Positions 14,430 to 57,123 of a stretch of DNA of 64,000 bases are shown in pieces; position 1 is the first letter of the stretch, and every line of letters begins with the position of its first letter. The notes beneath the pieces were generated by a model, which did not search any database, was not told where the DNA came from, and saw only the letters and a list, made by a program, of their open reading frames with translations. Source of the stretch: Bacillota bacterium. Lineage in GTDB: Bacteria; Bacillota; Bacilli; Alicyclobacillales; SLC66. Location of the stretch: contig JAKACV010000009.1 of assembly GCA_021821085.1 (NCBI GenBank), positions 1 to 64,000 of the forward strand, written 5' to 3'. The position numbers and the translations under genes are program-made.

Positions 14430-15614
14430 ATGACAGAAACGACAGTGATGAGGTTAGAAGAAGAATACGGGGCACATAATTATCATCCATTGCCGATCGT
14501 TCTCGTGAAAGGAGAGGGGATTTGGGTAGAGGATGCAAACGGTAAGCGCTACATGGATATGTTAAGCGCTTACTCTGCTTTGAATCAGGGACATCGTCAT
14601 CCGAAAATCATTCAGGCGCTAAGAGAGCAAGCAGATAAAATAACGTTGACTTCACGCGCCTTTCATAACGATCAACTGGGGCACTTGTATAGCCGACTTG
14701 CACAACTGACAGGAAAAAATATGATTTTGCCAATGAATACTGGGGCAGAAGCAGTTGAGACTGCAATTAAGGCTATTCGACGGTATGCCTATGATGTTAA
14801 AGGAATCGCACAGAATCAGGCGGAAATCATTGTAGTGAATGGGAACTTCCATGGCCGTACAACTACCATTATTTCATTTAGCTCAGAGGATGAATATAAG
14901 CGGGGGTTTGGGCCTCTAACACCTGGTTTTCGAGTGATTCCCTATGGTGACCTGAATGCGCTAGAGCAAGCGATTACGAAAAATACGGCGGCTCTGTTGA
15001 TTGAACCGATTCAGGGAGAAGCTGGGATCATTATTCCACCAATGGGATATCTAAAAGCTGCGTATGCACTCTGCAAGAATCATGGAGTGTTATTTGTCGC
15101 CGATGAGATCCAAACAGGGTTAGGGCGCACAGGGAAAATGTTCGCATGTGATTGGGAAGATGTCACACCTGATATGTATATCATTGGGAAGGCGCTTGGC
15201 GGTGGAGTGTTCCCTGTTTCAGCAGTTGCGGCTGACAAAGAAATTTTAGGTGTATTTGAACCGGGTTCGCATGGATCTACATTTGGGGGAAACCCACTTG
15301 GAAGCGCGGTGGCTGTAGCGGCGTTAGATGTAATCATAGAGGAGAAGCTCGTAGATCGGTCCTGTGAACTCGGTGCATATTTTTTGAACAAGCTGCAAAT
15401 GATTCAACATCCGCTTATTCATGATGTGCGTGGACGTGGATTGTTCATTGGAATGGAATTGACTACAAAAGCACGTCCGTACTGTGAGAAGATGATGGAT
15501 TTAGGATTGTTGTGTAAAGAAACGCATGAGAACACGATTCGTTTTGCCCCGCCACTTGTTATTACCACAGAAGAAATCGATATGGCAGTTGATCGTATCC
15601 AGTCCGTTTTTTAA
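14430..15614 (+). CDS. rocD: Ornithine aminotransferase
   Basis: [52 protein letters not shown] lysine region [18 protein letters not shown]. Confidence 0.93.
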
Positions 15615-15689
15615 CAGTAGTGAAATCCTCCATCGCAGTAGAAATCGTGATGGCATGAAAATAATACAGGTGGGCCCCGATTTGATAGA

Positions 15690-15926
15690 ATGGAAGTGTC
15701 AAAGCAACCAATACCATGGGGGTTCACCTGTATGGTGATTATACTACAACTCAGCCTATTTGCGTGGAATGAGATCGATTCATTGGGAGACTTGGAGCGT
15801 CGCGAAGGGCACTTGCACTGTCCGATTGTCTCGGTGGCTTGGCGAGTACCCATGATCGTGGATCGACTGATTTTTATGACGATCGATCACAGCAGCTACA
15901 AAAGATATCCGCAGGCGCCGTCTTAA
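15690..15926 (+). pseudogene. Possible transposase N-terminal remnant
   Basis: ILQLSLFAWNEIDSLGDLER resembles the N-terminus of some DDE transposases; the rest is degenerate. Confidence 0.3.
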
Positions 15927-16106
15927 GGACAGGGCCGTTTTTGCATGGCTATGGATAACTAAGCGAGAGTGCGCGGTTGAGTATGTAGAAGAACGTATTT
16001 GCATGGTCACATTTTCTTCACTGTAAAAAGGAGAGTGCAGGTGTGTGGGATCGTGTGTACTCTGGTATGATAAATAAAGTATATCATTTATGAGGAGGTT
16101 GTAATT

Positions 16107-17315
16107 TTGAAAGAGACAGATATGAATCGCCGTGAATTAGCTGTTGAAACGATGTTAGTACATGCAGGAAATGTACGTCGAGATGTCGACTCGACTGCTC
16201 TAGCGATCTATCCCAGCACCAGTTTTATGGCTGATTCGCCAGAACAATTGGATCGAATTATGGCAGGAGAAGAGGACGGCTTTTCGTATTCGAGACATGG
16301 CAATCCGACCGTTGATGGTTTAATGGTCGCGATGGCACAATTAGAGGGTGCAGAAACGGTTATTGCCACAGCGTCTGGGATGGCCGCGATCGATGCTGCC
16401 TTATTTGCAGTTGGTTTGCGAACTGGGGATACTGTGCTGTTAAGTCGTGATTTATATGGCGCGTCACTGAACTTAGTGGGAAAAGTTTGGGCGCAATACG
16501 GAGTGAAGACAGTCGTCGCAGACTTGACTGATCTGAATCAACTGGAAGCGATTCTTCACAGGGAACGTCCTAAAGCTCTTTTATTTGAGATATTATCTAA
16601 TCCCATTCTAAAAGTTGCAGATGCACCCAAGATCGTGGCCATGGCTCACGCAGTTGATTGTCAAGTCATTGTAGACAGCACTTTTACGACCCCACTTATG
16701 GTAAAGCCCCTGTCGTTTGGAGCAGATCTTGTCGTGCATAGCGCAACTAAATATCTTGGTGGACACGGTGATGCAATGGCAGGGATCGTTGCAGGGAGTG
16801 GACGCTATCATGATGCGTTGCACCAATACTTGAAGTTGCGCGGAGGCGTTTTAGGTCCGTTTGAAGCGTGGCTCATCCATCGTGGAATTCAAACATTAGC
16901 TGTTCGATTTGAACGGCAATGTGCAAATGCGTGGGAACTGGCGCAACATCTTGAACAAACAGGAGTTTTTCGCCATGTGTACCATCCATTCTTGCAAAGT
17001 CATCCCACTGTTGCTACAGCACAAAGATTGTTACCCGCCCATATGGGGGGAGCTGTTGTCACCATTGAATTGATGGGTGCACGCAAAGAAGCCTATACGT
17101 TCTTACGGTCACTGAGGGTTATTCGTTCCGCCACTACAATTGGGGATGTCTATACGCTGTGTCTCTATCCTTTAGTCGCATCTCATCGTAACCAAACAGA
17201 TCAGGAACGGCTGGCTATGGGAATCACAGAGGGAACGATGCGAATTGCAGTTGGTCTTGAGCATCCAAATGATCTGTTTGCGGATATTATGCAGGCGGCT
17301 ACAATGGCTCAGTAG
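16107..17315 (+). CDS. Trans-sulfuration family PLP enzyme (cystathionine gamma-synthase / methionine gamma-lyase type)
   Basis: [56 protein letters not shown]. Confidence 0.9.
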
Positions 17316-52001: not shown

Positions 52002-52042
52002 ATCTATGTATTAATAAATATTGATTCATGGAGGTTTATACT

Positions 52043-52306
52043 ATGGATATTCGTGAAGTGGCTACGATTAAAGAGGAAAATGAAGCGGGAAAAGTGGTTG
52101 TTGAATTTAATGGAGTTGAAACAGAAAAACTTCAGGAGTTGGTTACAGAGTGCTCCAGTGGTACATGTTCTTGTGGTAGTGAACAATTTCTTACCAATGT
52201 CGAATCATTTGTTCTCTCTGACGATGGGAAGACCATTGAGATATCTGGTAAGGTGAGTGCAGAAGAGGTTGCGAATACTCTTAAGGATTGGCAGAAAGAA
52301 TTATAA
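52043..52306 (+). CDS. Small protein with CSSGTCSCG cysteine motif (unknown function)
   Basis: MDIREVATIKEENEAGKVVVEFNGVETEKLQELVTECSSGTCSCGSEQFLTN...; start ATG near 52043 after GGAGG. Confidence 0.7.
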   Translation: MDIREVATIKEENEAGKVVVEFNGVETEKLQELVTECSSGTCSCGSEQFLTNVESFVLSDDGKTIEISGKVSAEEVANTLKDWQKEL

Positions 52307-52375
52307 GAAACACTGCAAAGGTATGGCCCACTTGGCGCGCATGCCTTCGTAACATCGTAAAGAGGAGTGAAACGA

Positions 52376-52744
52376 ATGGAAAAATCCTGGGAGTTTGAGG
52401 AGCAACAACTCCCCATTTTTGTAAAGGTAAATTTGAATGGAGTCTTTAAGGTGTTGGCCGATCCAACGCGCTTACAGATGTTTAAGATGCTTGCTGATGT
52501 AGGGGGTATCTGTTGCCGAATTGTACCCAATATAGAGCTGGAAGATGCAGAGGGAGTTACTTATGGATTGTGTGTACAAGACTTTGTAGCACATTTAAAG
52601 ATTCCACAATCTACAGTTTCACATCATTTATCATTGCTACGCAACGCAGGTCTCGTACAAAGTATAAAAAAGGGTCTATGGGTATACTATTACCGTGATG
52701 AAGTGACAGTTGAGGCGTTTAAGAATGCGGTCAAGATGCTATAA
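52376..52744 (+). CDS. ArsR family transcriptional regulator with internal Cys-containing insertion
   Basis: LNGVFKVLADPTRLQMFKMLADVGGICCRIVP...GLCVQDFVAHLKIPQSTVSHHLSLLRNAGLVQSIKKGLWVYYYR; AGAGGAG before ATG 52376. Confidence 0.88.
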   Translation: MEKSWEFEEQQLPIFVKVNLNGVFKVLADPTRLQMFKMLADVGGICCRIVPNIELEDAEGVTYGLCVQDFVAHLKIPQSTVSHHLSLLRNAGLVQSIKKGLWVYYYRDEVTVEAFKNAVKML

Positions 52745-54372: not shown

Positions 54373-54639
54373 TTATACTTGCCAGGGCCACGGAGTATTA
54401 TTCCACTGCCATGAGTCATGAGTGCCATCATGACCTCCAAAAGACGTGAGGGGAGTGGGATTTTGCTCAAATTGCTTTGCTAAAACTTCCCTTCGATCTT
54501 TAAACTGTTGATATTGCGCAAGTGCCTGAGTGTCAGATGGATGTGTATCGAGATAGAGTGTTAAATCTGTAAGCACGAAATCGATTGATTGTAACTCATG
54601 CAACGCACGGTAATAAGTAGCAGGCAGTTGATCATTCAT
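54373..54639 (-). CDS. cotJB: Spore coat protein CotJB
   Basis: YYRALHELQSIDFVLTDLTLYLDTHPSDTQALAQYQQFKDRREVLAKQFEQNPTPL...WQWNNTPWPWQV. Confidence 0.92.
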   Translation of the reverse strand: MNDQLPATYYRALHELQSIDFVLTDLTLYLDTHPSDTQALAQYQQFKDRREVLAKQFEQNPTPLTSFGGHDGTHDSWQWNNTPWPWQV

Positions 54640-54845
54640 TTGATATCGCCTCCCGTATAGGGACTATAAAGATCTGGCCAGAGTGTCCCATGGCGCAATG
54701 CTTCGCGATAGGCAAATTGTTTGAGGTGACGCGGCTGAACGGTGATGAATTGATTGACGGGAATAATAAACGGTTTAGACGTATGCACTGGGCAGGGATC
54801 ATTGGCGCTATGGTACGGGGTATATGTTTGCCAGCGTGGATCCAT
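54636..54845 (-). CDS. cotJA: Spore coat associated protein CotJA
   Basis: KPFIIPVNQFITVQPRHLKQFAYREALRHGTLWPDLYSPY; GGAGGATG upstream; ATGA overlap with cotJB. Confidence 0.88.
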   Translation of the reverse strand: MDPRWQTYTPYHSANDPCPVHTSKPFIIPVNQFITVQPRHLKQFAYREALRHGTLWPDLYSPYTGGDIK

Positions 54846-55068: not shown

Positions 55069-55313
55069 TTAGGTAATGAGTGATTGTAGTGTATCACGAT
55101 GTATGATCAAATCAGCCAGTGTATAGGCATCAAGTATGTTCAGGGAGGCGTGTAGAGCTTCTGCTAATACTGTTTTTAACCGACAATCAGGAATTAGCGT
55201 ACAGATCCTGATCTGTTTATCAAAACATTCTGCTATGTTAAAATTCCCCTCTATCTCACGCATAACTCTCCCTATATTAATTTCCTCAGGTGGTGTGACT
55301 AATTGAATTTCGC
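55069..55313 (-). pseudogene. nsrR: C-terminal fragment of an NsrR-like Rrf2 family regulator
   Basis: QLVTPPEEINIGRVMREIEGNFNIAECFDKQIRICTLIPDCRLKTVLAEALHASLNILDAYTLADLI; the HTH half is absent. Confidence 0.8.
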
Positions 55314-55314
55314 C

Positions 55315-55602
55315 AAAGTGAATATTCCCGGACAATCCTATACTTATCGTCGTCAAAACAGTTTATCAGGTGTGCCTGGAAAAAAGAATTATCGCATTCG
55401 TGTCAAGCGTGAGAATGTACGCGGAGATTTGCCAGCTTGGGTCGTGTCAAACTGCTTGCATAGTAATATTAAAGAGGGGGACGTTGTACACATTGCACCA
55501 CCTTCTGGGAATTTTGTTCTCCATGCTAAAACAGATCGACCCGTACTCCAGAAAACTGGAATGGGGTCGTCTTTTCGCACTCTTTTTTTACTGTTTCAGT
55601 AA
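55315..55602 (+). pseudogene. hmp: Internal FAD-binding-domain fragment of flavohemoprotein
   Basis: KVNIPGQSYTYRRQNSLSGVPGKKNYRIRVKREN...VSNCLHSNIKEGDVVHIAPPSGNFVLHAKTDRPV; globin domain and C-terminal NAD domain missing. Confidence 0.8.
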
Positions 55603-55757
55603 AACCACAAGTTTTTCAGTGGCCTCGACACATTCCATCTTCTTTTTATTGTGTCTACGAGCTTAGATGAATGCAAATGCATTTTTAGTTTCTTTTAACT
55701 GCCGCTATACCACTGCATTTCTTTGCTGATTTGATGTGCTGAAGTAATATTTTGGTA

Positions 55758-56732
55758 CTATGCTTCTGCTCGTGCAGATCGATAAAGTCGATCGAGCGTG
55801 CGCGCCTGAGCGAGTGATGCGTCGCGAGTATCTTCTAAGGTGTTTTGATTGCGAATAGCATCGCAAAAATATTCGATTTCCTTTACATATTGATTGGTAT
55901 CAAGTACGGGTTCCATCCGTACTTCCGCGCCTTTGCGCACAATCAATTCGGCATGTCCTTTATCAGGGCGAAAAGGGTGAGTAACCACAATTGACCCTGA
56001 CGTGCCAACGATTTCGACATATTGACGATCGGGTGCTTCAAAAGAACAATCAAAATGGGCGATTCGTCCACCGGAGAAACGAAGTATTCCTGATAAGGTG
56101 AGATCAATGTCATTTGTTTCATGGAAATGGGCGACTGCGGTGACGTACAGTGGTTCCTCTTGCATCAATGTACGACTGACGTGTACGCAGTATGTTCCCA
56201 CATCGTAAAGAGCTCCTCCGCCATATGCTCGGTTCATGCGAATATCGTTTGATTTTGTCAAAGGAAAACTGAAATTCGATGTGATGATTTGGATCTGGCC
56301 AATCTCCCCGCTATTGATTAGTGCGCGAACGCGATCCCATTGTGGATGAATCGGATACATGAAGGCTTCCATAAGAACGATGCCATTTGTCGAGGCAGCT
56401 TCAATCATGCTTTTTACTTCTTGTTCATTCAAAGCGAGAGGCTTTTCGCAAAGAACGTGCTTCCCGCTTTGTGCAGCACGAATTGTCCATTTCGCATGTT
56501 CGTGGTTAGGAAGTGGGATGTAGACAGCATCGACATCAGGGTTGTCAAGAAGTGATTCATAGCAATCTTCGACTATGGGTATGAGATTCTGCTTGGCAAA
56601 TTGTTCTCCTCTGCCACTATCCCTGCTTGCGACCGCTATCACATCAGTTCCAGAAACTCTACGAATTGCAGGGATCAATTGCGTTTCGGCAATGTGAGCG
56701 CTTCCGAGTATCCCCCATTTAATTTGCTGCAT
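55758..56732 (-). CDS. Gfo/Idh/MocA family oxidoreductase
   Basis: KWGILGSAHIAETQLIPAIRR; VDAVYIPLPNHEHAKWTIRAAQSGKHVLCEKPLALN. Confidence 0.92.
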   Translation of the reverse strand: MQQIKWGILGSAHIAETQLIPAIRRVSGTDVIAVASRDSGRGEQFAKQNLIPIVEDCYESLLDNPDVDAVYIPLPNHEHAKWTIRAAQSGKHVLCEKPLALNEQEVKSMIEAASTNGIVLMEAFMYPIHPQWDRVRALINSGEIGQIQIITSNFSFPLTKSNDIRMNRAYGGGALYDVGTYCVHVSRTLMQEEPLYVTAVAHFHETNDIDLTLSGILRFSGGRIAHFDCSFEAPDRQYVEIVGTSGSIVVTHPFRPDKGHAELIVRKGAEVRMEPVLDTNQYVKEIEYFCDAIRNQNTLEDTRDASLAQARTLDRLYRSARAEA

Positions 56733-56760: not shown

Positions 56761-57123
56761 TTATTGTACCGTCGGATTATGTTTGCGGTGCTCTGTATGC
56801 GCAAATGAGTGGCTTTGTTCAAGATCTACTTTTAGAGCCTGTTCAAAAAGGGTTGAGGTAAGATGCAAGCAGGGGTTTGGTGAAGTCTGGACATGCGCGC
56901 GGAGTGTACGATAGGTGGTACATGAGCACGCATGTCCAGCACAAGCCGAAGCCCTGCGCCGCAGAGTTCTCGCCCCTTTTTGAACGACCTCTTTTACTTG
57001 TTCTTCGGAATAAACGTCTGAGGATCCAGCTCGTCGTAAATTTTGTCCGATGACTAATGCATGATGATGAAGACGAGATAAATTTTGAAGCGATTCATGA
57101 CGCTTTTGCGGAGAAGTACCCAT
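56761..57123 (-). pseudogene. Hemerythrin-like small ORF carrying the MITE-like element
   Basis: N-terminal HESLQNLSRLHHHALVIGQNLRRAGSSDVYSEEQVKE, then element-encoded residues (QKGARTLRRRASACAGHACS...) to a short 3' tail. Confidence 0.5.
56834..56992 (-). mobile_element. MITE-like element, long form, copy 2 (opposite orientation to copy 1)
   Basis: Reverse complement of 37571-37725 with very few differences by eye. Confidence 0.8.

Follow-up and report, generated by a model that had tools for sequence, protein, structure and literature searches.

How does a bacterial genome come to hold the 3′ half of one gene and the middle of another, on opposite strands and without a single base between them? 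This arrangement lies between positions 55069 and 55602 of the window, by which we mean the whole 64,000-nucleotide stretch of DNA analyzed here. A preliminary description of the locus proposed that a divergent nsrR-hmp pair had been fused by a deletion. We put at about 93% the probability that an intact pair was destroyed here by an approximately 0.9-kb deletion and by a separate replacement with a hairpin repeat and that both leftovers are pseudogenes. The site is a case of ordinary gene loss by deletion in which two pseudogenes were made.

Remnants of nsrR and hmp lie on opposite strands

The minus strand carries, at positions 55069 to 55314, the C-terminal half of an NsrR-like gene with its native stop codon (coding part, 55072 to 55314; translation, GEIQLVTPPEEINIG...ECFDKQIRICTLIPDCRLK...SLIT, then stop). 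The open reading frame that contains it (55069 to 55356) matched the Pfam Rrf2 profile (E = 3.7e-12), with residues 15 to 84 of the frame aligned to positions 61 to 130 of 132, and also matched the NCBIfam RirA (6.5e-16) and NsrR (9.5e-14) models, both from profile position 62 to 63. The profiles agree with the earlier reading of this segment as an NsrR C-terminal Fe-S half starting at about 55313, and the homology reaches 55314. All three cluster cysteines (CX7CX5C) are present, within ECFDKQIRICTLIPDCRLK. By both profile and alignment, the N-terminal winged helix-turn-helix is absent from the remnant, with residues 1 to 68 (G002 numbering) missing, and the score of 51.6 bits is below the NCBIfam equivalog cutoff of 182. 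The remnant is 57% identical to the intact NsrR of a congener (G002) and keeps 18 of 20 residues that are invariant in intact relatives, the other 2 being changed.

On the plus strand, positions 55315 to 55550 encode approximately 78 residues of the FAD-binding domain of Hmp, 45% identical to intact Hmp from G002. The surrounding open reading frame (55303 to 55602) had no Pfam match but matched NCBIfam NF009805, the model for NO-inducible flavohemoprotein (6.7e-19; profile positions 194 to 270 of 399), and together with the alignment this match confirms FAD-domain homology from about 55315. The N-terminal globin domain is absent from the remnant and is found on no contig of the assembly. The C-terminal NAD-binding domain is likewise absent from the remnant: homology stops at about 55550, which is where that domain starts and is before the SGGVGMTP motif, and the rest of the frame, through 55602, belongs to a repeat instead of to Hmp. 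When compared with 11 intact relatives, the remnant keeps 20 of 25 invariant columns and has lost 5 (Y to N and D to G in RxYSLSD, S to R, G to W, and Y to C); in a leave-one-out control, each intact relative kept the 25 columns that were invariant among the others. The RxYS motif of the FAD domain is thereby disrupted, reading RQNSLSG versus RQYSLSD or RHYSLSD in intact Hmp. Because both leftovers are without a start codon and the hmp piece is without the heme and NAD domains, we regard both as nonfunctional pseudogenes. A NO-sensing repressor has thus disappeared along with the NO dioxygenase that is its target.

A single deletion would account for both facing ends

Alignments of both protein and DNA to G002, G006, and G013 place the deletion junction within positions 55312 to 55317. 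NsrR homology ends with codon 55312 to 55314 (G of GEIQL; GGIRL in intact protein), and Hmp homology starts with codon 55315 to 55317 (K of KVNIPG; KIDIPG in intact protein). The remnants had been described as abutting within a few bases; the alignment leaves zero bases between 55314 and 55315. In intact loci, the span between the same homology boundaries is 902 bp (G002) or 908 bp (G006 and G013), and what is missing relative to G002 is hmp codons 1 to 192, which encode the globin domain and the first part of the FAD domain, the intergenic region, and nsrR codons 1 to 68. The proposal that one deletion removed the helix-turn-helix, the shared promoter, and the globin domain is thus supported, since the remnants fit a single loss of 902 to 908 bp; the losses at the two facing ends would be one event.

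The intergenic region of G002 contains a palindrome, AAGATATATTTAAAATACATCTT, that agrees at 21 of 23 positions with an NsrR-box consensus that we assumed. Scored against this assumed consensus, the intergenic regions of G006 and G013 reached 17 and 18, and the best site in the junction region of the window reached 14 of 23. Judged from the sequence, the shared intergenic promoter and the putative NsrR box are gone at the window locus.

A hairpin repeat replaces the 3′ end of hmp

A hairpin repeat of approximately 90 nt (55537 to 55627) directly adjoins the hmp remnant at its 3′ end; read along the minus strand, the repeat starts with GAGGCCACTGAAAAAC. The genome has at least two further copies, 84% and 79% identical to positions 55537 to 55627, and single copies occur in four relatives (G001, G002, G004, and G005); the repeat is longer in some relatives, at roughly 150 nt, and the flanks differ in every copy. 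The predicted fold of positions 55525 to 55630 has an energy of −30.3 kcal/mol (z = −3.27), and Rfam gave no match to the repeat. One copy abuts a TnpB-like fragment; because flanks differ in all copies, we make no claim that the repeat is the end of an IS605/TnpB element.

Intact hmp genes continue for 410 to 431 nt to the stop codon beyond the point that matches approximately 55550. Since hmp homology gives way to the repeat near that position, we attribute the 3′ truncation to a second rearrangement. The hmp fragment had been described as frameshifted or truncated at the NAD domain: truncation is correct, whereas a frameshift is ruled out as the cause of the 3′ end, since a repeat that also occurs elsewhere starts at 55537. 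At this second junction, the sequence read as hmp (GATCGACCCGTACTCCAG) overlaps that of the repeat (GACCCGTACTCCAG) by approximately 14 nt; such an overlap would be consistent with joining through short homology, although chance could also explain it.

Relatives carry the intact pair, two of them at the same position

Related species, to which the preliminary description had pointed for comparison, do hold intact divergent nsrR-hmp pairs. In G002, the pair is on contig C25 (hmp, 14715 to 15929, minus strand; nsrR, 16052 to 16519, plus strand), away from the GFO/IDH gene. In G006 (Ferroacidibacillus organovorans SLC66) and G013, both Ferroacidibacillus-type members of the same family, the intact divergent genes lie beside a GFO/IDH/MocA oxidoreductase gene. 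The window carries an intact GFO/IDH/MocA family oxidoreductase gene at 55758 to 56732 on the minus strand (Pfam PF01408, 2.6e-25), which is approximately 50% identical to the G006 and G013 neighbors and has the same relative order and orientation. Given this common neighbor, the remnants occupy the position that the whole pair occupies in these relatives.

A separate observation concerns G002, whose Hmp (encoded within L046:14715-16519) shares 78% identity with its Sulfobacillus thermotolerans Kr1 counterpart, versus 53 to 54% with those of its own family. By sequence similarity, this suggests horizontal transfer of the G002 hmp gene between acidophiles; as the G002 pair also has another location, at least one copy of the pair in the genus may have moved.

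When an alignment of intact Hmp was used as the query, 80 hmp loci were recovered from named genomes; the fragment as the query recovered none. An nsrR homologue was present at 60 of the 80 loci and was divergent beside hmp at every one of the 60 (55 by a coordinate test and 5 shorter loci by inspection of coordinates), in line with a comparative study that ties NsrR to hmp across bacteria, Gram-positives included (PMC1274295). The window locus resembles the divergent nsrR-hmp locus of Bacillota in its two gene families, in their divergent order, and in the GFO/IDH neighbor as found in F. organovorans; it differs in that both genes are cut at their facing 5′ ends, hmp is cut at its 3′ end too, and the promoter and putative NsrR box are gone. 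It also resembles pseudogene pairs left by single deletions across divergent promoters, in which 5′-truncated genes on opposite strands abut and are decaying yet recognizable. Nothing sets it apart from these in kind; the window adds a hairpin repeat that truncates the 3′ end of one remnant.

Proposed history of the locus and alternatives to it

In the history that we propose, the ancestor would have carried an intact divergent nsrR-hmp pair adjoining the GFO/IDH oxidoreductase gene. A single deletion of approximately 0.9 kb would have removed hmp codons 1 to 192, the promoter/operator region, and nsrR codons 1 to 68, and in a separate step, the short hairpin repeat would have taken the place of the last 410 to 430 nt or so of hmp together with some of the adjoining intergenic sequence. 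That the 0.9-kb loss was one event, the order of the deletion and the repeat replacement, and the NO-related phenotype of the loss are things that we infer.

The state of the reading frames counts against this history to some extent, as both remnants are free of stops and indels. By a rough estimate that assumes transition-biased substitutions and one indel per 10 substitutions, the chance that each frame stays open is approximately 0.2 at 0.05 and approximately 0.05 at 0.1 neutral substitutions per site. The event must therefore be recent, or the open frames must be luck. Given these low odds, the deletion is probably recent, and part of the residue changes may be older than the deletion.

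The remnants could alternatively have arrived already fused, as a defective segment gained by horizontal transfer, such that the pair was never whole here. The distinct location of the G002 pair and the closeness of its Hmp to that of a Sulfobacillus favor this idea, as does a tree of the two fragments (FastTree, approximately 159 columns) in which the window falls outside its family: the window is on a long branch, apart from the Ferroacidibacillus pair (G006 and G013), with supports of 0.63 to 0.78. Given this placement, the orthology of the remnants with the family locus rests on synteny. However, the GFO/IDH neighbor common to the window and the intact pairs of G006 and G013 is best explained by descent, and we hold a prefused arrival to be very unlikely. 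Slightly less likely still is an assembler artifact at 55313 in a genome whose nsrR-hmp pair is in fact whole. The draft assembly has 107 contigs and is 97.5% complete, but the rest of Hmp (the globin and NAD domains) is on no contig, and the junction lies within a 74-kb contig, its sequence occurring once in the window and its surroundings once in the genome. Because the junction sequence is unique in the genome, no repeat was available for a false join. Otherwise invariant residues are lost in the remnant, as in a pseudogene, and the repeat at the second junction differs by 16 to 21% from the other copies, too far to confuse an assembler.

The least probable alternative, which we consider extremely doubtful, is that the minus-strand NsrR fragment is still translated and used as a short cluster-binding Fe-S protein that keeps some NO-related function, for instance, as a NO sensor unable to bind DNA or as a dimerization partner. 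The frame runs open to the native stop and retains the three cluster cysteines, and just 2 of the 20 invariant residues are changed. Against this, the fragment has lost its own start codon, and the minus-strand frame opens at a TTG that lies within hmp sequence read in antisense; its native promoter is gone, and the four promoter-like matches around the junction are near chance (mean, 2.3; standard deviation, 1.7). A full-length NsrR partner was not found, with no second NsrR match at an E value of ≤1e-3 elsewhere in the genome. Destruction of an intact pair by deletion and repeat replacement thus remains our preferred reading.

NO defense in the rest of the genome

The survey of defenses against NO in the 97.5%-complete draft covered Hmp, truncated globins, NorB-like and flavodiiron NO reductases, and hemerythrin-domain proteins. 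The genome contains no second Hmp; the only two other matches to the Hmp model are ferredoxin-reductase-type proteins, whose best matches are electron-transfer subunits of dihydroorotate dehydrogenase. A search for truncated globins found none in the genome; the sister species G001 has two and G002 has one. No NorB model was among the matches of the three COX1-family proteins in the genome, which match terminal oxidases, and no flavodiiron NO reductase was detected, the ODP-domain matches being at most 40 bits in frames of 214 to 332 residues, which are too short. The suggested check for other NO reductases or hemerythrins thus turned up no NorB- or flavodiiron-like enzyme. It did turn up a RIC/ScdA iron-sulfur (di-iron) repair protein (TIGR03652, 249 bits versus a cutoff of 205), encoded near a selenide-water-dikinase-like gene (L071:2193-2990, contig C76). 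The sister species G001 and G002 have no hemerythrin-domain match, and no site upstream of the RIC gene matched the assumed NsrR-box consensus at 14 or more of 23 positions.

The preliminary suggestion that canonical NO detoxification was lost therefore holds at this locus and, for Hmp and truncated globins, genome-wide. It does not extend to a loss of all nitrosative-stress defense, which is unsupported given the RIC/ScdA repair protein.

Neighboring features

Several other features of the region were recorded in passing. A MITE-like element of approximately 160 bp (56834 to 56993) has imperfect terminal inverted repeats (GAGCCTGTTCAAAAAGGG...CCCTTTTTGAACGACCTC); at least 40 copies were scored in the genome at approximately 96 to 99% identity, and with 113 candidates, more copies are probable. 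The RIC/ScdA gene on contig C76 has one such copy downstream of it. On the other side of the remnants, genes for the spore coat proteins CotJA and CotJB occupy 54373 to 54845 on the minus strand. They have no adjoining cotJC, as the next downstream gene, which is on the opposite strand, encodes an amino acid permease. An ArsR-type regulator gene (52367 to 52744) adjoins genes for a small CSSGTCSCGSE-containing protein (52028 to 52306) and an amino acid permease.

Implications

For annotation, the consequence is that nsrR and hmp should not be listed at this locus. The loss of the pair leaves general understanding unchanged, and its physiological implication is small; the locus illustrates cleanly how a regulator and its target can both be removed when one deletion spans their divergent promoter. 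It also suggests that neither Hmp nor a truncated globin serves this member of a family that contains acidophiles in handling nitric oxide, and the RIC/ScdA repair protein, which is missing from the sister species, perhaps contributes to coping with nitric oxide.
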